Origin: Clostridium sp. Marseille-Q2269
GTDB taxonomy: Bacteria > Bacillota > Clostridia > Clostridiales > Clostridiaceae
Reading direction: 5' to 3'
Assembly: GCF_943736985.1 (NCBI RefSeq)
Contig: NZ_CALSFS010000005.1
Span: 1 to 64,000, forward strand
DNA length: 64,000 nt
Positions 5,909 through 38,979 of this stretch are shown in pieces. Each line of letters starts with the position of its first letter. The stretch's first letter is position 1. A program made the position numbers and the translations under genes. The notes under the pieces were generated by a model that saw nothing but the letters and a program-made list of their open reading frames with translations, did not search any database and was not told the DNA's origin.

Positions 5909-8080
5909 TTATTTTTTTGTCCTATATACTTCTAATACGCCTTTTAATTTTCTTATGTTTTTCATTACTGTCTTTAAGTCTTCTATATTACTTATTTTTA
6001 ATTTTATATTTACCACTACTGAATCATTTTTAATAGGCTTTGCATTTACAGCATAAAGATTTGTTTTACTGCCATTTATAGTCAGCATAATATCTGCTAA
6101 TAATCCATCTGTATTTTCCGCTATAACTTCTAGCTCTGAAATATACTCTCCACCTTTTGGTTTTCCCCAACTAACTTCTACTATCTTGGTAGGATCTTCT
6201 TCTACTAATTGTTCCATATTTTTGCAGTCAGTTCTATGTATTGATACACCTCTACCTTTTGTTATATATCCTATTATATTGTCTCCTGGTACAGGATTGC
6301 AACATTTAGCAAATCTAACCAATAAATTATCCTCACCTTTTACTATTATTCCTGGTGAAGTACTCTTTTTCTTTTTAATTTTGTTTGTTTTATCTATTTG
6401 GTCTCTAACTTCATTCCAATTAAGCTCTGGCTTATTCTTTTTTAAATACTGCTCTCTAAATCTTAATACAACTGCTGAAGCCGATAAGCTACCTATACCA
6501 ACAGCAGCAAACATATCTTCTATGTTGCTCATGTTGTATCTTTTTAGTACAGTTTCTAAAATCTCGCCCTTTGCAAGTTCTCCAAAGTTATACCCTTGTT
6601 TTTTAGTTTCTTTTTCTAATATATCTTTACCCTTATTTATATTTTCTTCTTTATCTTCCTTTTTAAACCACGCTCTTATTTTACTTTTAGCTTGATTACT
6701 CTTTACCATACTTAACCAATCTAAATTAGGTCCTTTTGGTGTGGTAGAAGTTAAAATATCTATTATTTCTCCAGTTTTAAGCTCATAATCTAAAGGAACC
6801 ATTTTTCCATTAACCTTAGCACCTATACATCTATGGCCTATATCTGTATGTATCTTATAAGCAAAATCCACTGGGGTAGCTTTATTAGGTAGACTTATAA
6901 CTTTACCCTTTGGAGTAAATACAAATACCTCGTCAGAAAACAAGTCTATTTTAAATCCTTGCATAAATTCTTCTGGGTCTGTAGTTTCTTTTTGCCAGTC
7001 TAACATTTCTCTAAGCCATGTTAACTTTAATTCTATATTATTGTGAGAATTTGCGCCTTCTTTATATTTCCAATGAGCTGCTATACCATATTCTGCAGTT
7101 TTATGCATTTCATAAGTTCTTATCTGAATTTCAAAAGGTCTGCCCCCTACTCCCATTACAGTAGAGTGTAATGATTGATACATATTAGGCTTAGGCATCG
7201 CTATATAATCTTTAAACCTACCTGGTATAGGCTTATATACTGTATGGGCTATGCCTAAAGCAGCATAGCAATCCTTAACTGTATCTACTAATATTCTAAC
7301 TGCTGTCAAATCAAATATTTGATCTAAATTTTTGTTTTTGTTTTGCATTTTTTTATATATACTGTAAAAATGCTTTGGTCTTCCATCTATTTCTGATTTG
7401 ATACCTGCCCTTTCTAAGCTTTGTTCTAATTCTGAAACTATCTCTTTTATATGCTCTTCTCTTTCAACTCTTTTTTCTGCAATTTTTCGTACTAGAAAAT
7501 AATACTCATTGGGATTTAAATATCTAAAAGATAAATCTTCTAGTTCCCACTTGATTTTAGATATTCCTAGCCTATGAGCTAATGGTGCATATATATCTAA
7601 AGTTTCTTGAGATTTCTCCTTTTGCTTTTCTACAGACATAAATCTTAAGGTTCTCATATTATGTAGTCTATCCGCTAATTTAATAAGTATAACTCTTATA
7701 TCCTTTGTCATTGCCAATAACATTTTTCTTACATTATCAGCTTGCTGTTCTTCTTTGGTTTTATATTCAATTTTCCCTAATTTAGTAACCCCATCCACTA
7801 GATCAGCTACTTCACTTCCAAATTCTCTAGAAACATCCTCATATGTATATTGAGTATCTTCAACAACATCATGCATAAGCCCTGCTATCATGGTGTTAAC
7901 ATCCATACCCATTTGAAATAATATTATAGCTACCTCTTCTGGATGGACTATATAAGGTTCACCAGATATTCTTTTTTGTTTTTTGTGGGCATTGCAAGCA
8001 AAATTATATGCTTTTTTAATAAACTCTATTTCTTTTTCACTGAAACTATCTTTTATTTTTACCACTAAATCTTCTAGCAT
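5909..8080 (-). CDS. relA: bifunctional (p)ppGpp synthetase/hydrolase
   Basis: Makes and degrades the stringent-response alarmone. The 723 residues contain, in order, an HD hydrolase domain with an intact HD pair (HDVVEDT, about 70-76), a RelA/SpoT synthetase domain (about 225-345, including YQSLHSTV), a TGS domain (about 385-450) and a C-terminal ACT domain (about 645-723). The intact HD motif argues for a bifunctional Rel enzyme. ATG preceded by GAGGAG. A GC-rich hairpin lies just upstream (8106-8126). Downstream is dtd, upstream apt, so purine salvage, alarmone metabolism and tRNA editing share a neighbourhood. Confidence 0.96.
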
Positions 8081-12148: not shown

Positions 12149-13516
12149 TTAATCGTTCATTATATTAGATTTTAAAGCTATTGCACATTCTATTCTCTTT
12201 TTTTGCATAGTACATCCTAGGCTATATGGTACATTCATATCTTTGTTAAAGTTATAATTATTTGCTTGGCATCCTCCACTGCAGTAAAATCTTGCCCAAC
12301 ATTTTTTACATTCTGGTTTATTATATATATGAGCTTTCTTAAACTCTTTTGCTATATCTTCTTTTACTTCAAAGCCCTTCATTATGTTACCCATTTTAAA
12401 GTCTTCATTTCCTACAAATTGATGACAAGGGTAAATATCTCCTGATGGAGCTATAGCCACGTATTCATGTCCTGCTCCACAACCAGATATTCTTTTATAA
12501 ACACACGGTCCACCTTGAAGATCTATGTTAAAGTGATAAAATTTAAATTCTTTACCTTCCTTATGCCTTTTTATCATTTCTTCTATTAATTTATCATATT
12601 GATTAAATATTATTGGTAAATCTTCTTCTCTTAATGATAAAGGATGTTGCTGTGGAAGCACTACTGGCTCTATAGATATTTCATCAAAATCATTATTAGC
12701 CATATGCATTACATCTTCAAAGAAATCTAAATTTTCTCTTGTAAATGTTCCTCTAGCATAATACTGTTTTGTTTTGTCTCTCATCTCTACCATCTTTTTT
12801 ATCTTAGGCAATATAGCATCATAAGATCCACTTCCATCTACTCTAACTCTTACATTGTCATTTACTTTTTTTCTTCCATCTATACTTAACACTATATTTC
12901 CCATGTTTTTATCCAAGTACTCCATTATTTCTTTATTCAATAAAGTACCATTGGTTGTCATAGTAAATCTTATAGTTTTATTATATTTCTTTTCTTGCTT
13001 TTTAGCATATTCTACTATTTCTTTTATAGTGGAAAAAGCCATTAAAGGTTCTCCACCAAATAAATCTACCTCTATGTTTTTTCTTGGTCCAGACTTTTCT
13101 ATAACAAAATCTATAGATCTTTTACCAATTTCAGGAGACATTAATTCTCTTTTACCTTTATATTCTCCCTCATCTGCAAAACAATATTTACATCTTAAAT
13201 TACAATCATGGGCTATATTTAGACACAATGCCTTTATAAAATTTTCACTATTCTCATGAGCGTAAGCTATATTTTCATATTTATCTTTAGAGTATAGCAT
13301 GTCCTCTTTTACAAGACTTTTAATTTCTTCATAAACTTCTTCTATTTCTTCTTTAGTATACTTATCTTTATATACATTAATAAGCTCTTCTTTACTTTTT
13401 AACCCTTCATCATCTAATAAATCATATACTATATCATCTACTATATGTACTGCTCCTGAATTTACGTCTATAATGTACTTTTGTCCACTTTGAATGAACT
13501 TATGAATATCAGCCAA
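12149..13516 (-). CDS. scfB: SCIFF peptide radical SAM maturase
   Basis: Installs thioether cross-links in the SCIFF ribosomal peptide encoded just upstream. The 455-residue protein has an N-terminal peptide-recognition-like region (about 1-90), a radical SAM core with CNLRCKYC (C105, C109, C112), DLFGGEPL, and a C-terminal SPASM/twitch region rich in cysteines (including CGAG, YPCHQF, CKKCWARFYCSGGC) for auxiliary Fe-S clusters. It is separated from scfA by a hairpin. ScfA/ScfB pairs are nearly universal in Clostridia. The mature product's role is not known to me. Confidence 0.93.
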   Translation of the reverse strand: MADIHKFIQSGQKYIIDVNSGAVHIVDDIVYDLLDDEGLKSKEELINVYKDKYTKEEIEEVYEEIKSLVKEDMLYSKDKYENIAYAHENSENFIKALCLNIAHDCNLRCKYCFADEGEYKGKRELMSPEIGKRSIDFVIEKSGPRKNIEVDLFGGEPLMAFSTIKEIVEYAKKQEKKYNKTIRFTMTTNGTLLNKEIMEYLDKNMGNIVLSIDGRKKVNDNVRVRVDGSGSYDAILPKIKKMVEMRDKTKQYYARGTFTRENLDFFEDVMHMANNDFDEISIEPVVLPQQHPLSLREEDLPIIFNQYDKLIEEMIKRHKEGKEFKFYHFNIDLQGGPCVYKRISGCGAGHEYVAIAPSGDIYPCHQFVGNEDFKMGNIMKGFEVKEDIAKEFKKAHIYNKPECKKCWARFYCSGGCQANNYNFNKDMNVPYSLGCTMQKKRIECAIALKSNIMND

Positions 13517-32481: not shown

Positions 32482-32519
32482 AAGAATAAAAACTCCTTAA
32501 TTGGAGTTTTTATTCTTTT
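32480..32519. terminator. bidirectional terminator overlapping both stop codons
   Basis: A 17-bp perfect stem (AAAAGAATAAAAACTCC / reverse complement) with a 6-nt loop. The left arm begins within the PBP stop codon and the right arm contains the spoVAE stop, so two convergent genes share one hairpin with no spare bases. Confidence 0.92.
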
Positions 32520-32866
32520 GTTTTAGGATTAAATAGCAAAGACATCATATATCCAAATACAATAGCTGCTGCTATTCCTCCTGCTCCACCTTTTGTACCT
32601 CCAGTAAAAGCACCAATAAGTCCTTTAGCTTGAACTTCTTTTATTGTAGCCTTAGCTAATGTATAACCAAATCCAGGAAGTGGTATTGTTGCTCCTGCTC
32701 CTCCTATATCTATAACATACCCATATATACCCAAAGCTCCTAATATAACACCTAATGTTACGAAACTAACTAAAATTCTTGCTGGTGTTAATTGTGTAGT
32801 ATCCATTAATATTTGGGCTATAACACATATTGCTCCACCTACTATAAAAGCACTCAAATAATCCAT
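32510..32866 (-). CDS. spoVAE: stage V sporulation protein AE
   Basis: Integral membrane subunit of the SpoVA channel that moves Ca-dipicolinate into the developing spore and out on germination. The 118 residues have three to four hydrophobic segments and the family patterns FIVGGAICVIAQ and PGFGYTLAKAT. Paralogous to spoVAC. Last in spoVAC-D-E; ATG with GGGAGG. Confidence 0.95.
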   Translation of the reverse strand: MDYLSAFIVGGAICVIAQILMDTTQLTPARILVSFVTLGVILGALGIYGYVIDIGGAGATIPLPGFGYTLAKATIKEVQAKGLIGAFTGGTKGGAGGIAAAIVFGYMMSLLFNPKTKE

Positions 32867-32880
32867 AAAAATTCCTCCCT

Positions 32881-33888
32881 TTATCTTTCTATAGCAACTG
32901 CGTGGGCAATGCCTGGTATACTTTCTCCCTGCTGTGATGATGTAGTACTCATTAATGCACCTGTGGATATCAATAAAGCTCTTTTAAACTTACCACTCAA
33001 TAAATTTTTATATATGTATCCACATCCAACTACTGCTGAGCATCCACATCCGCTTCCACCAGCTTCAGTATTTTGTTTTTCATTATCAAATATTATTTCT
33101 CCACAATCTACATATACGTCTTTCATGTTATACCCATGCTTTAGTAGAAGCTTTTCTGCTAGTTCTCTACCAACTTTACCTAAATCACCTGTTGCAATAA
33201 TATCATAATCTTTAGGAGTCCTTCCAGTATCTTTAAAATGTTGATATATAGTAGATACCGCAGCTGGAACCATAGATGCTCCCATATTATCTGCGTTGGT
33301 GACACCATAATCCTTTACTTTTCCTATAGTAACATAGGTTATATGAGGATAATTTCCTTCTTTTCCTAAAACTATAGCACCTGATCCAGTAACTGTCCAC
33401 TGGGAAGTTGGAGCTCTTTGTGCTCCATATTCTAGCGGAAATCTAAACTGTCTTTCTGCAGCAGAAAAATGTGAAGAAGTAGCTGCAATAGCATACTTTG
33501 CAAATCCTCCATCCATTAACATGGATGCCACACTTAATGATTCAGTCATAGTAGAACAAGCTCCATATAATCCTATAAAAGGTATATCTAAATCTCTTGC
33601 TGCAAAGCTTGAAGATATAGTCTGATTTAACAAATCTCCAGCACATAATATATCTATATCTTTATCTTCTAAATTACATTTTTTTATAACATCTGAAATA
33701 GCAGTAGATAATATAGCGCTTTCTGCCTTTTCAAAACTTTCTTGATTAAATAAATCATCTTTTAATATTATGTCAAAATAATCTTTTAGCGGCCCTTCGC
33801 CTTCTTTAGGTCCAACTATGCTAGTAGTACCTATTATTTTAGGTTTGCTATCTAATTTTAAGGTCTGCTTACCAATTCTTTTATTCAA
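32881..33888 (-). CDS. spoVAD: stage V sporulation protein AD
   Basis: Soluble, thiolase-like SpoVA subunit that binds dipicolinic acid. The 335 residues begin NKRIGKQT and contain GLYGACSTMTES, AATSSHFSAAERQFRFP and GAQRAPTSQWTVTGSGA, all typical. The open frame extends five codons further to a TTG, but those codons are the Shine-Dalgarno GGAGGAG; the TTG at 33888 is correctly spaced (8 nt). Lies between spoVAC and spoVAE with gaps under 25 bp. Confidence 0.95.
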   Translation of the reverse strand: MNKRIGKQTLKLDSKPKIIGTTSIVGPKEGEGPLKDYFDIILKDDLFNQESFEKAESAILSTAISDVIKKCNLEDKDIDILCAGDLLNQTISSSFAARDLDIPFIGLYGACSTMTESLSVASMLMDGGFAKYAIAATSSHFSAAERQFRFPLEYGAQRAPTSQWTVTGSGAIVLGKEGNYPHITYVTIGKVKDYGVTNADNMGASMVPAAVSTIYQHFKDTGRTPKDYDIIATGDLGKVGRELAEKLLLKHGYNMKDVYVDCGEIIFDNEKQNTEAGGSGCGCSAVVGCGYIYKNLLSGKFKRALLISTGALMSTTSSQQGESIPGIAHAVAIER

Positions 33889-33910
33889 TGTAAACTCCTC
33901 CAATTCTAAA

Positions 33911-34366
33911 TTAAAGTTTACTCATTATAAAGTATATTATTCCTACTATAACTGAAGAGCTTATACCATAAACTAAAACTGGACCAGCTATAACAAACAT
34001 TTTAGCTCCTACACCAAAAATATATCCCTCTTTTTTAAATTCCATAGCTGGAGATACAATAGAGTTTGAGAATCCAGTTATAGGTACTACAGTTCCTGCT
34101 CCTGCAAACTTAGCTATTTTATCATATACTCCTATTCCAGTTAAAAATGCTCCTATAAATACCATTACTATAGATACATAAGTACCTACTTCATCCTTAG
34201 GAACTCCCATACTTAAAAAGAAATTATTAAAAAACTGTCCTACATCACAAATAAGACCTCCTACTATAAAAGCACTAACACAATGTTTAAAAATTTGTGG
34301 TTTTGGCTCTACTTTAGGAGATAAATTATCAAAATCTTTTCTTAGTTTCTTTTCATTTAACGCCAT
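33911..34366 (-). CDS. spoVAC: stage V sporulation protein AC
   Basis: Membrane subunit of the SpoVA channel; in Bacillus SpoVAC has mechanosensitive-channel behaviour. The 151 residues have a soluble N-terminus (about 1-25), then several transmembrane segments with FIVGGLICDVGQ and VPITGFSNSIVSPAMEFK. First gene of spoVACDE and separated from sigF by a terminator. Confidence 0.95.
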   Translation of the reverse strand: MALNEKKLRKDFDNLSPKVEPKPQIFKHCVSAFIVGGLICDVGQFFNNFFLSMGVPKDEVGTYVSIVMVFIGAFLTGIGVYDKIAKFAGAGTVVPITGFSNSIVSPAMEFKKEGYIFGVGAKMFVIAGPVLVYGISSSVIVGIIYFIMSKL

Positions 34367-34425: not shown

Positions 34426-34439
34426 ACTCAAAAAAATAA

Positions 34440-34467: not shown

Positions 34468-35223
34468 CTATACGGTAAGTTTTTCCTTCATTAATTTTAG
34501 TACCTTTTTCTCTATCCTAGATACTTGCACTTGACTTATTCCTAATTGCTTAGCCACTTCTATTTGAGTTTTATCTTTAAAGTATCTTAATACTATTATT
34601 TGCCTTGATTTAACATCTAAATTTTTCAGTGCCTCTTTTAGCGCTATATTATCTATAATTTTATTATCTTCATCTGTAGTTTGACTTATTTTATCAATAA
34701 GTAAAACTGGCGCTCCATCGTCTTGATGTATAACATCATATAAATATTGAGGAGAACTTGATGATTCTGTAGCCATTAATATTTCATCTACAGTGTATCC
34801 TGAAAACTGTGACAATTCTTCTATAGTAGGTTCTCTATTCAATTCCTTGGAAAGCTTTTCTTTATCGTAATGCAACTTCTTTGCTGCGGTTTTTATGCTC
34901 CTACTTACTTTTATTATGCCATCGTCCCTTAAGAATCTTTTTATTTCTCCCATTATCATAGGAACTGCATAGGTAGAAAACTTCACATTATACTTTGTTT
35001 CAAAATTATTTATAGCTTTTACTAACCCAATACATCCTATTTGGAATATGTCATCATACTCATATCCTCTGTTTAAAAATTTTTTACTTATGGCTGAAAC
35101 TAATGGTAAGTTTACTTCTACTAATTTGTCTAAAGCTTGTTTATTTCCATCTCTGGCTTCTCTCATAAGTTCCATGTTGTCTTCAAAACTTTTAGTTTCC
35201 ATGATTACTTTTCCACTATTCAT
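34468..35223 (-). CDS. sigF: RNA polymerase sigma factor SigF
   Basis: First forespore-specific sigma factor. The 251 residues have sigma region 2 (YEYDDIFQIGCIGLVKAI, FSTYAVPMIMGEIKRFLRDD), region 3 and region 4 with the helix-turn-helix TQIEVAKQLGISQVQVSR. The open frame has a GTG three codons upstream that is part of the ribosome-binding site (AGGTGA); the ATG at 35223 is used. Held inactive by SpoIIAB and released by SpoIIAA, both encoded just upstream. Gap to spoIIAB is about 20 bp. Confidence 0.96.
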   Translation of the reverse strand: MNSGKVIMETKSFEDNMELMREARDGNKQALDKLVEVNLPLVSAISKKFLNRGYEYDDIFQIGCIGLVKAINNFETKYNVKFSTYAVPMIMGEIKRFLRDDGIIKVSRSIKTAAKKLHYDKEKLSKELNREPTIEELSQFSGYTVDEILMATESSSSPQYLYDVIHQDDGAPVLLIDKISQTTDEDNKIIDNIALKEALKNLDVKSRQIIVLRYFKDKTQIEVAKQLGISQVQVSRIEKKVLKLMKEKLTV

Positions 35224-35241
35224 ATTCTTCACCTAACTTAA

Positions 35242-35664
35242 TTATTTAAAAACCTTTTTCATAATTATTTTGGTTCCCTTTCCCTTTTCTGAATTAACTT
35301 GAAGACTATCCATGAATGTTTCCATTACTGTAAATCCCATACCAGATCTCTCTAAATCAGGTCTTGATGTATACAATGGTTGTCTAGCTAGTTCTATATT
35401 ATCTATACCATCGCCATTATCTGAAACTATTACTGTAACTTCTCTTCCTCTTATTTCACTTTCAATACATACTAATCCTTTTTTACTATTTTCATATCCA
35501 TGTATTATTGAATTAGTAACTGCTTCTGATACAGCTGTTTTAACATCTGTTATTTCATCTATTGTAGGATCTAATTGTGATATAAAAGCCGCTACTGATA
35601 CTCTAGCAAAACTTTCATTTTCTGACTTACTTAAAAATTCTATTTTCATTTTGTTTTCATACAT
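35242..35664 (-). CDS. spoIIAB: anti-sigma F factor / kinase SpoIIAB
   Basis: GHKL-fold serine kinase that binds sigma-F and phosphorylates SpoIIAA. The 140 residues show the N box ([11 protein letters not shown]), G1 box (SDNGDGI), and G2 box ([15 protein letters not shown]). Starts with ATG with GGGGGG nine bases upstream. Middle gene of spoIIAA-AB-sigF. Confidence 0.96.
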
Positions 35665-35680
35665 CTCATAAATCCCCCCA

Positions 35681-36016
35681 TTATAAGTTCTTTACGGCTT
35701 CATCCACACTGTCATAAAGATCTACTATTTTAAACATACCAGAAAGCTCAAATACTCTTCTTACTGCTTCTTGTACATTAGTTAGACATACCTTTCCATC
35801 CCTTAATGATAACTTTTTATATCTTCCTATAACTACTCCTATACCTGAACTATCCATAAAATTAACTTTACTGAAATCTAATATTAATTTATTTAAATTT
35901 TCTCTATCTAATCTATCATCAATAATATTTCTAACTTCTTCAGCACTATGATGATCTAGTTCTCCTGTCATAGTTACTATAAGTTTGTCTTCTTTTTTAT
36001 CAAATTTTAAGTACAT
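35681..36016 (-). CDS. spoIIAA: anti-anti-sigma factor SpoIIAA
   Basis: STAS-domain protein that frees sigma-F when unphosphorylated. The 111 residues contain the phosphorylation site FMDSSGIG (S56/S57). ATG follows GGGGGG. First gene of the operon, 44 bp downstream of an excellent sigma-H promoter. Confidence 0.96.
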
Positions 36017-36059
36017 ACTATTCCCCCCAATTTCGTATTTTTATAGAGCATCAATGTTA

Positions 36060-36088
36060 CTATTCTACACATGGAATAATTTTCCTTC
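36060..36088 (-). promoter_or_regulatory. sigma-H promoter of spoIIA operon
   Basis: On minus GAAGGAAAA, 11 bp, GTAGAATAG: both boxes fit the sigma-H consensus (RnAGGAwww and RnnGAATw). It is 44 bp before spoIIAA, as expected for this operon. The minus-strand GTGGACAATA at about 36111-36120 faintly resembles a Spo0A box. No CAAAAA or TTTTTG site is seen in the spacer 36017-36204. Confidence 0.8.
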
Positions 36089-36204
36089 TTTTATACCTCT
36101 TTTTATTATTGTCCACATTGAATTAATCTATTCATTTCTTATGTAAATTTGTATGCACTTTAGTGAGGAATATCTGCTTTAAATATATTTTAAGTTTATA
36201 TTTT

Positions 36205-37938
36205 TTATTCAATTAACAATTTATTTTGTATAAATCTAATTTCTTTATCACTTAAATTAAAATATTTATATAAATCTTCTTCTTTATCTATATTAATTAT
36301 TGGTATCTTTAATTTCATTAACGTATTGGGATAGTATTCATATAAATTTGCCCCTAATTTCTTAGCAAAGGTCTTAAAATAAAATTCGTATATACGACTG
36401 TTTAAAATAAAAAGTAAACTTCTATAATCTATTATTTCCTCTTTATTGATAGTTAAAGCATATATATCTGCACTAAAATATATACCTTCCTTGTCTAAGT
36501 AAAATTTATTCTTACTAGATTTATATGGGAATATAACTTTTTGTTCTTCAAATATATTAGATTTTCTTCCCCATTGTAGTTCATACCACTTTCTAACATT
36601 TTTTTTGCATTCCCTTCTGTTTTCTAATTTTTCTTTATATTTTTCAATATGATTTATTATATTAGGATATTTTTTAATATCATCTATTAAGTTAGAATAT
36701 ATTATGAAATTATCTCTAAAATTAATTCTTTCTCTATTTATATGGCTACTTTTTATCCAAGGTTTTATAATATCCTTCTCCAAACATTCTTTTTCTATAG
36801 TTTCTTTATCGACTATGAAAGCTTTATCACATCCTGTAATAATACCTTGATAACTTGTGCATACTTCCCCTAAAGTTTTATATACCTTGATTTGTATTTT
36901 ATTTATTATATTCTTACTTTTTTCATCTATTAGAATCCATCCATCTTCATTTAGTGAAGAACTATTGACATAAAAATTATCATATTCATCTTGATTTTCA
37001 AAAAACAAATCTATTTTTTCTTTTTTATATGTATTAGGTTTTATGATTTCTACTTTATCTTTAATATTTTTATCTATAAATATTATAGCTGGATCTATAC
37101 CTGCACCGTTAAAAGGTCTTATGCCATAAAAATCTAATATTTTATATACATTACATTCATCTTTTAAGTATTTTCTTAAATCATATCCACTCTTAGACTC
37201 CATAAAATATCTTGATGTTATAAAAGTAATTTTACTATTTTTGTTAGAATAATTTAATGCATTAATAAAGAAACAATAAGATACATCTCCCTTATCTTTA
37301 TATATGTGTTCATATTTTCTCTTTAATAATATTGAGTATTCCTTATTTACAGCTTTATGTCCAACATAAGGTGGATTTCCTATATATATATCAAAATTGT
37401 CATTTATATTTTCTATTAAAAAATCCTTTTCTTTAAAATTGTTTATATTATAATAGCCTGTCAAATAAAATAAATCTATTATTAATATTTTTATAGCTAT
37501 TGGATCAATATCAAATCCGTATAAATTATTATCTAATATATGCTTATCTATATATTGTTTTTTTAAATTCATATTATTTTTTTTATTTATCTGTTCTAAA
37601 TTTTCTTCAAATATATTCTTTAAATAAAAAAAGCATGGAATCAAAATATTTCCACATCCACAAGCAGGATCCAATATTTTAATGAATGGATTATTTAATA
37701 CTTCTATGTTATTTATAGTGTTTTCTATCATATAGTCACAAATTCCTTTTGGTGTATATATAACTCCTGTTTCTTTTTTACCCTTTATTAACTCATAATA
37801 TTTTAAGGATATATTCTCATCTTTACCAATAGATAACTTATTTTTAAACTTATTAATAACTTCATATTTGTAAATACTATTTATATGAGATATTACTATA
37901 TTAAATATTTTTTCTATATTATCTTTAAATTCATCCAT
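36205..37938 (-). CDS. CamA-like orphan N6-adenine DNA methyltransferase
   Basis: Transfers methyl from SAM to adenine in DNA. The 577-residue protein (start corrected to ATG 37938, preceded by GGTGAG) has SAM motif I DPACGCGN (about 90-97), catalytic NPPY (188-191), and a long C-terminal target-recognition region. Segments SYQGIITGCDKAFIV, KLENRRECKK, RKWYELQWGRK, and FPYKSSKNKF followed by FSADIYA match, from memory, Clostridioides difficile CamA, a 577-aa methyltransferase of the sequence CAAAAA that influences sporulation. No restriction nuclease gene is nearby; neighbours are spoIIAA and pdaA. Orthology, and hence the target site, is inference from motif similarity, equal length and context. 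Confidence 0.85.
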   Translation of the reverse strand: MDEFKDNIEKIFNIVISHINSIYKYEVINKFKNKLSIGKDENISLKYYELIKGKKETGVIYTPKGICDYMIENTINNIEVLNNPFIKILDPACGCGNILIPCFFYLKNIFEENLEQINKKNNMNLKKQYIDKHILDNNLYGFDIDPIAIKILIIDLFYLTGYYNINNFKEKDFLIENINDNFDIYIGNPPYVGHKAVNKEYSILLKRKYEHIYKDKGDVSYCFFINALNYSNKNSKITFITSRYFMESKSGYDLRKYLKDECNVYKILDFYGIRPFNGAGIDPAIIFIDKNIKDKVEIIKPNTYKKEKIDLFFENQDEYDNFYVNSSSLNEDGWILIDEKSKNIINKIQIKVYKTLGEVCTSYQGIITGCDKAFIVDKETIEKECLEKDIIKPWIKSSHINRERINFRDNFIIYSNLIDDIKKYPNIINHIEKYKEKLENRRECKKNVRKWYELQWGRKSNIFEEQKVIFPYKSSKNKFYLDKEGIYFSADIYALTINKEEIIDYRSLLFILNSRIYEFYFKTFAKKLGANLYEYYPNTLMKLKIPIINIDKEEDLYKYFNLSDKEIRFIQNKLLIE

Positions 37939-38004
37939 ATTACTCACCACAATCTTTATTATTCTATAAAAAGTATAACATAGAAAGGGATAGGTGATTT
38001 ACTT

Positions 38005-38979
38005 ATGAACAAAAAAGTTATTTCTTGCATTTTGGCTTCTTGTTTCTTATTATGTTCTTGTAATTTAAGAGCATCTAATCAAAATCCTAATTCAACTTTA
38101 GATGAAAATAATATAAAAACAGAAGAAAATGATATAAAAAACAAATCTGATAATACCAAAGAAAGTTCTAAAAATCATATTGATAATAAAAATAATGGGG
38201 AGAATAATAAAGATGAAGACAAAGATACAATTACTAGTAGTAATATAAATAAATTTAAGGATGAATCTAATATATCTCCTAAGGAAAAAGATTGGTTTTT
38301 TAAACCTAGTAAAAATAATGAACCCGCTACTATACCAGATGATATGGAAAATAACCTTAATAAATATTCTGGATATTTCATTGGAGACACTTCTAAGAAA
38401 CATTTATATCTTACATTTGACGAAGGTTATGAAAACGGGTATACAGGCAAAATATTAGATGTATTAAAAGAAAATAATGTTAAGGCAGCTTTTTTTGTAA
38501 CAGCTCCTTACATAAAGCAAAACAAAGATTTAATCAAAAGAATGGCTGATGAAGGTCATTTAGTTTGTAATCATTCTGACACCCATCCTTCAATGGCTTC
38601 TGCAGCCTTAAAAGGGAAAGAAAATTTCCAAAAGGAATTTACTGTTGTAGAAGATTTGTATAAAGACATCACAAAAAAAGATATGCCAAAATTCTTTAGA
38701 CCACCTATGGGAAAATACAGTGAGTTGTCTTTAAAATATACACAAGATATAAATTATAAGAGTATATTTTGGAGCTTTGCATATTATGATTGGGATAGAA
38801 ATAAACAGCCTTCTCCTGAGAAAGGTAAAGAAAAAATATTAAATGGAGTCCATAATGGAAGTATTATTCTTTTACATGCAGTTTCTAAAACAAATACTGA
38901 AATATTAGATTCTGTATTAAAAGAATTGAAAAATAGTGGATATGAGTTTAAAACATTAGAAGATTTGCCTAAAAAATAA
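38005..38979 (+). CDS. PdaA-type polysaccharide deacetylase lipoprotein
   Basis: Deacetylase of the NodB fold, most like spore-cortex PdaA (muramic-delta-lactam formation). The 324 residues begin with a lipoprotein-like signal ending CSCN (Cys about 19), then a ~100-residue Asn/Lys/Asp-rich linker, then NodB motifs TFDEGYENG (about 138-146), HSDTHPSM (metal His pair) and RPPMGKYSE. The catalytic-base position reads TFDEG, as in the PdaA subfamily. Divergently oriented from the CamA-like gene with a 66-bp spacer, so both may share regulation. Confidence 0.88.
   Translation: MNKKVISCILASCFLLCSCNLRASNQNPNSTLDENNIKTEENDIKNKSDNTKESSKNHIDNKNNGENNKDEDKDTITSSNINKFKDESNISPKEKDWFFKPSKNNEPATIPDDMENNLNKYSGYFIGDTSKKHLYLTFDEGYENGYTGKILDVLKENNVKAAFFVTAPYIKQNKDLIKRMADEGHLVCNHSDTHPSMASAALKGKENFQKEFTVVEDLYKDITKKDMPKFFRPPMGKYSELSLKYTQDINYKSIFWSFAYYDWDRNKQPSPEKGKEKILNGVHNGSIILLHAVSKTNTEILDSVLKELKNSGYEFKTLEDLPKK

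Follow-up and report, generated by a model that had tools for sequence, protein, structure and literature searches.

The gene on the minus strand at 36205..37938 of the window, the 64,000-nucleotide stretch of Clostridium sp. Marseille-Q2269 DNA that was analyzed, is best explained as an ortholog of camA. Its product would be a stand-alone methyltransferase for CAAAAA (probably CAAAAAR), a housekeeping epigenetic enzyme whose gene has been inherited mostly vertically and is fixed upstream of spoIIA-sigF, and this reading is given a probability of roughly 0.78. In mechanistic terms, the Clostridiaceae camA ortholog would encode a gamma-type adenine-N6 methyltransferase without a nuclease, which would modify the last adenine of CAAAAA, probably as CAAAAAR, chromosome-wide. 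Passed on mostly vertically in its fixed place, the housekeeping enzyme might tune the onset of sporulation by way of promoter sites that vary from family to family. The basis for this explanation is homology, predicted fold, base contacts, the lack of a nuclease in the window, and conserved linkage; that the window protein is active, recognizes CAAAAAR and tunes sporulation entry is what we infer from these. No report of the spoIIA linkage or of a family-wide distribution of camA was found in the open-access literature, and a conserved sporulation locus that includes a methyltransferase is apparently unreported.

The methyltransferase and its locus

The features on which the argument depends are as follows.

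36205..37938, minus strand: CamA-family orphan adenine-N6 DNA methyltransferase, 577 aa (open reading frame, CamA homology, domains and fold)
37366..37377, minus strand: predicted catalytic NPPY motif, residues 188-191 (invariant in a 13-row alignment; present in 80 of 81 rows of a larger one)
36823..36849, minus strand: putative recognition segment QGIITGCDK, residues 364-372, with the equivalents of CamA Q346 and I349 (alignments; contacts from PMC8187626)
36565..36630, minus strand: putative recognition segment KLENRREC..RKWYELQWGR, residues 437-458, with the equivalents of CamA R425, Q438, W439 and R441 (alignments)
36062..36086, minus strand: candidate sigma-H-like promoter for spoIIA, lying between the methyltransferase gene and spoIIAA (pattern match)
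35681..36016, minus strand: spoIIAA, anti-sigma-F antagonist (TIGR02886, above cut-off)
35242..35664, minus strand: spoIIAB, anti-sigma-F factor (TIGR01925, above cut-off)
34468..35232, minus strand: sigF (TIGR02885, above cut-off)
33911..34366, minus strand: spoVAC (TIGR02838, above cut-off)
32881..33903, minus strand: spoVAD (TIGR02845, above cut-off)
32510..32866, minus strand: spoVAE (TIGR02839, above cut-off)
38005..38979, plus strand: pdaA, divergent cortex de-N-acetylase (TIGR02884, above cut-off)

The reading frame is unbroken and yields 577 aa from an ATG, and an alternative GTG start at 37950 would give 581 aa. Pfam places an Eco57I methylase domain and a TaqI-like specificity domain (TaqI_C) in the product, for which no NCBIfam family scores above cut-off. 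An earlier sequence-only reading had proposed a CamA-like enzyme from its length and from three sequence segments. The length is indeed that of CamA, and GIITGCDKAF, KLENRREC and RKWYELQWGR are all present and identical in CamA, which is also the top match in a phmmer search of the PDB (E 2.2e-104, query residues 51-564), with M.BseCI far behind (E 3.3e-26). Homology thus covers both domains, the aligned part starting at residue 51. Pairwise alignment gives 43% identity to CamA; an 81-row alignment gives 38% across 537 columns, with the recognition half better conserved (45%) than the catalytic half (37%). An overall identity of just 38-43% weighs against the best explanation. An AlphaFold2 model built with the 13-row alignment as input has a mean pLDDT of 87, and its first 33 Foldseek matches are CamA-DNA complexes (E 9e-51, TM-scores of about 0.73-0.83, rmsd 5-6), followed by M.BseCI as the next family (E 5e-30). 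Alignment and predicted fold together make a strong case that the product is an intact adenine methyltransferase and that, among enzymes of known structure, C. difficile CamA is the closest to it.

The protein carries the gamma-class catalytic motifs, NPPY and motif I. The single row of 81 without NPPY is missing that part of the protein, and the motif I residue S62 is an alanine in the window protein, as in 11 of the 39 Clostridiaceae-group rows, window included. Among the residues listed as touching CAAAAA bases in the CamA structure (PMC8187626), 13 of 15 are identical in the window protein, the differences being S514 to G and I517 to L. Q346 and I349 are invariant in the 81 rows, and R425, Q438, W439 and R441 are kept in every row but L031, a broken copy from C. 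ljungdahlii ERI-2. The minor-groove contact H171 varies across the same rows of the CamA-like family, which weighs against the best explanation. Because the rows came from a scan of genome contigs with the peptides KWYELQW and YTPK[GI]I[CV]D, which favors members with those segments and retained 80 of 102 confirmed loci, the contact check was repeated on regions from a whole-protein search. The six contact residues were kept in 22 of the 23 proteins scored there, the other being a broken copy; this set held 25 loci, in two of which the script found no frame of >300 aa with NPPY, and shared a few genomes with the peptide-scan set. Given that the base contacts are kept, CAAAAA or CAAAAAR is the expected motif, and the window enzyme's target is likely CAAAAA(R). 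CAAAAAR is found 42 times in the window against 58 expected, below chance.

On the minus strand the gene is followed, after 188 bp, by spoIIAA, spoIIAB, sigF, spoVAC, spoVAD and spoVAE, with pdaA divergent. The placement between spoIIA-sigF and pdaA that had been proposed from sequence alone is borne out, since these neighbors pass curated cut-offs, and can now be completed with the minus strand and the tandem position upstream of spoIIA, which had been omitted. The claim that no nuclease partner accompanies the gene also holds within the window, in that PADLOC matched no restriction enzyme among the 38 other proteins scanned (a scan covering all but 2 of the 40 ORFs of at least 220 aa and few shorter ones) and none is fused to the 577-aa product. 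PADLOC also gave weak hits to viperin-like and PDC-S33 models, at 12149-13516 and 5909-8080, which are probably ordinary fold relatives. No terminator-like site was found in window positions 35500-38400, and a terminator-like hairpin is absent from the first 110 bp past the methyltransferase gene in 40 of 47 loci. One CAAAAAA lies at 34429-34435, within the short sigF-spoVAC gap.

Conservation of the linkage and inheritance of the gene

Of 206 genomes of Clostridiaceae (the family to which C. akagii belongs), 98, about half, have a homolog of the methyltransferase (E 1e-20), and 194 have spoIIAB (E 1e-30). Among the matches listed, 67 carriers have both genes on one contig, and in 54 of them the two share a strand, with the methyltransferase gene no more than 10 kb upstream of spoIIAB; it is at 12-29 kb in 10 and elsewhere in 3. 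Nine of 20 further carriers without a listed spoIIAB match are also adjacent (G001, G005, G017, G157, G159 and G166-G169), which brings the count to 63 of the 76 carriers that can be placed on one contig, the rest being 11 whose two genes fall on separate contigs and 11 without readable placement. Linkage of the methyltransferase gene to spoIIA-sigF is therefore a conserved trait. Within the peptide-scan loci, spoIIAA is seen downstream on the same strand in 26 of 80, several others ending too near the gene to show it, and the same arrangement occurs in 20 of 20 fetched carrier regions, 14 of which were preselected knowing so. The divergent pdaA is the nearest neighbor in 23 of 81 loci, window included. 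The gap between the methyltransferase gene and spoIIA ranges from 77 bp to 5.8 kb with varying contents, and many loci have another gene there, frequently speE and frequently in the opposite orientation. Carriers with a syntenic ortholog include C. acetobutylicum ATCC 824 (L170) and C. ljungdahlii DSM 13528 (L161), from two species for which CAAAAAR methylation has been published; C. kluyveri DSM 555 and C. pasteurianum BC1 are others, the latter with the gene at spoIIA. An Rrf2-type regulator is encoded two genes upstream of the methyltransferase in seven Clostridium loci, next to pdaA in L002 (8469-8885), and directly upstream of camA in four C. difficile loci (for example L044:9599-9997).

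C. carboxidivorans P7 (G115, L141) has no methyltransferase match at E 1e-20, nor does the region before its spoIIA contain one. The gene is broken in C. ljungdahlii ERI-2, G118, G159 and G180, and 1 of 15 fetched non-carrier regions (L145) retains a 43-aa remnant between pdaA and spoIIAA, indicating loss from that very place. spoIIAB is present in 99 of the 108 Clostridiaceae genomes without a homolog, so sporulation genes persist without the methyltransferase, which counts against the best explanation. With kinship not controlled, the two genes are not significantly associated in this family (homologs in 95 of 194 genomes with spoIIAB versus 3 of the 12 lacking a match to it, p 0.14), and the three homologs in genomes of the latter kind also weigh against the best explanation. 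Excluding them would give p 0.0005, but this stricter count was rejected because the contacts are intact in both of the readable ones.

In a tree of 79 rows, some of whose deep branches are weak and in which two long rows join, the window protein belongs to a clade of 34 Clostridiaceae rows (support 96). The four C. difficile rows sit within a group of Peptostreptococcaceae that includes Romboutsia, Asaccharospora and Metaclostridioides. Across 42 loci, with kinship not controlled, methyltransferase distances correlate with those of SigF (Mantel r 0.68) and SpoIIAB (0.41), to be compared with 0.64 between SigF and SpoIIAB. Judging from this tree and these distances, inheritance appears largely vertical.

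The enzyme type is also common in the family of C. difficile, the Peptostreptococcaceae, where at E 1e-40 a match is found in 63 of 71 genomes. Once four weak matches (5e-45 to 2e-54) are discounted, 59 genomes have a strong homolog, which in one of them contains 20 stops. Outside eight C. difficile-type genomes the count is 51 of 63, with Romboutsia, Intestinibacter and Terrisporobacter among the named carriers; in the class as a whole, 54 of 391 sampled genomes reach 1e-40, the surveyed genomes coming without completeness figures. The sequence-only suggestion that such enzymes extend beyond C. difficile is thus well founded in both families. The 59 of 71 runs against the printed description of CamA as C. 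difficile-specific in PMC13395437 (2026), on which a drug-target argument is built, and a 2021 structure paper (PMC8187626) likewise calls CamA rare elsewhere. Such a wide distribution weakens selectivity arguments for CamA as a drug target, and it means that the effect of DNA methylation on a developmental sigma factor could be studied in safe, tractable species such as C. acetobutylicum.

In the Peptostreptococcaceae the gene occupies a second, equally stable place, unlike that in Clostridiaceae. By-eye naming of neighbors in L042-L078 gave a patatin-like gene downstream in 19 loci and a ptsI-like gene in 21. A strong homolog is present in 52 of 54 Peptostreptococcaceae genomes with spoIIE versus 7 of 17 without (Fisher p 2e-6, kinship not controlled). 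The exceptions are two genomes that have spoIIE but lack the methyltransferase gene and seven in which a strong homolog occurs without spoIIE (G611, G612 and G598 among them).

Promoter sites and alternative explanations

In C. difficile, one methylated site, Me3, beside a Spo0A box in the spoIIE promoter is reported to raise spoIIE expression and sigma-F activity (PMC13395437). Among 37 Peptostreptococcaceae carriers outside C. difficile with a readable promoter, CAAAAA occupies the Me3 position in 24 and a second, upstream position in 24, with at least one of the two in 33. Their 130-bp spoIIE promoters contain 62 sites in all, where shuffled sequences would give 23; a few of these carriers have 1-3 stops in the methyltransferase gene. 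These conserved sites extend the C. difficile observation to its family. The 37 were reached from 54 genomes with spoIIE, of which 50 promoters were aligned (L225 was dropped at a contig end and three were absent); eight C. difficile-type promoters (four named, four judged by near-identical promoters), two from camA-less genomes, one from the genome with the 20-stop copy, and L235 and L241, with apparently miscalled starts, were then set aside. Conservation of Me3 was rejected as proof of function, as the site is kept by both camA-less genomes and by the genome with the 20-stop copy, and the invariance of a GACAAA core in these promoters also counts against a methylation reading of it. The camA-less spoIIE promoters are site-rich as well (4 sites versus 1.2 expected). 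Two Tissierella carriers have no CAAAAA sites in the spoIIE promoter.

Clostridiaceae give a different picture. CAAAAA within 250 bp upstream of spoIIE was considered as a conserved target and rejected, being present in 13 of 29 carriers (a set that includes two Caloramator) versus 12 of 30 non-carriers, with start codons called by script and the non-carriers being the loci returned for 36 genomes hand-picked from 108. The window has no CAAAAA in the 250 bp upstream of spoIIAA. In a set of loci that is not independent, since it includes close relatives, broken copies and one Tissierella (L041), CAAAAA precedes spoIIAA in 24 of 47 carriers versus 18.5 expected (5 of 15 non-carriers versus 5.2), the methyltransferase gene in 27 of 46 versus 18.7, spoVAC in 21 of 29 carriers versus 14.4, and pdaA in 9 of 27 versus 9.9. 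Spo0A-box-like motifs upstream of spoIIAA are at expectation (3 of 47 versus 3.0). The sigma-H-like pattern, defined by what we take to be the consensus, stands before spoIIA in 27 of 47 loci versus 1.4 expected. Of the tie to sigma-F that had been proposed from sequence, the physical part stands, as conserved linkage; the idea that methylation acts on sigma-F here is not demonstrated, given the site-free region before the window's spoIIAA, the operon's own sigma-H-like promoter, and spoIIE sites that do not track the gene. A regulatory tie to sigma-F in Clostridiaceae is unproven.

The strongest competitor, with a chance not far short of even, is that the enzyme is a housekeeping orphan methyltransferase with no specific role in sporulation and that its adjacency to spoIIA is an inherited neighborhood in a slow-changing region. 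The sigma-H-like promoter of spoIIA, the CAAAAA counts before spoIIAA and spoIIE, the different and equally stable place of the gene in Peptostreptococcaceae, and the similar conservation of other neighbors (pdaA and speE) all suit this alternative, but it must contend with a linkage that survives turnover of the intervening genes, with the co-occurrence with spoIIE in Peptostreptococcaceae, and with the reported action of CamA on sigma-F in C. difficile (PMC13395437). A direct effect in cis, in which the enzyme marks spoIIA or transcription runs into it and sets the dose of sigma-F, is improbable. Although the tandem orientation and the scarcity of terminators would permit it, the window has no site before spoIIAA, in many loci another gene, often facing the other way, separates the two, and spoIIA has its own promoter. 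Least probable is a remnant of a restriction-modification system or a defense gene. Type II methylases and type IIG enzymes are indeed among the family's kin, and the similarly folded M.BseCI is a restriction-modification methylase, but no nuclease is present among the scanned window proteins or among the recurrent neighbor clusters that could be named by eye (80 loci plus the window), and inheritance is largely vertical.

The camA-ortholog explanation can be taken further, albeit tentatively. The linkage to spoIIA-sigF, the genes of the first forespore switch, hints at an old connection between DNA marking and spore formation. CAAAAA methylation might be ancestral in clostridial sporulation control and kept where sigma-F depends on it, wired either through spoIIE-promoter sites, as in the family of C. 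difficile, or by locking the gene beside spoIIA-sigF, as in Clostridiaceae, perhaps so that what counts is the dose of the gene, its timing, or the hemimethylated state that follows replication of the locus or its entry into the forespore; we regard this broader scheme as possible and rather doubtful.

Comparison with known systems

Several relatives have published methylomes with the expected motif. CAAAAAR carries N6-methyladenine in A. woodii, where cloning tied it to Awo_c14460 (PMC6700114), in C. ljungdahlii and C. autoethanogenum (PMC6507227, with 11% of sites detected as methylated in the former), in C. acetobutylicum (PMC10865971), and in E. limosum (PMC9503626). In C. pasteurianum it is methylated at 97% (PMC4690370) or 24% (PMC5027557) and is assigned to a lone M gene, CP6013_1459 (PMC5027557). 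One report raises the possibility that CAAAAAR has the same function as the C. difficile motif (PMC10745947).

C. difficile CamA (PDB 7lni, 8cxz) is alike in length, two-domain build, NPPY motif, 13 of 15 base contacts, and the lack of a nuclease partner. It differs in its 38-43% identity, in a printed motif of CAAAAA rather than the CAAAAAR of the relatives, and in the absence of spoIIA genes from the four camA loci examined (L044, L050, L064 and L065). Awo_c14460 and CP6013_1459 are likewise N6-adenine enzymes of Clostridia for the expected motif and probably belong to the CamA-like family. M.BseCI (7qw5) shares the fold and the TaqI-like recognition domain at 22-23% identity, and is the methylase of a restriction-modification system, unlike the orphan window enzyme. 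CcaP7ORF7120P of C. carboxidivorans resembles the window enzyme in methylating CRAAAAR, which includes CAAAAAR, but is a type IIG enzyme encoded by a fused restriction-modification gene of 3726 bp (PMC10745947). C. carboxidivorans P7, without a CamA-type gene, thus has the same motif covered by an enzyme of a different kind.
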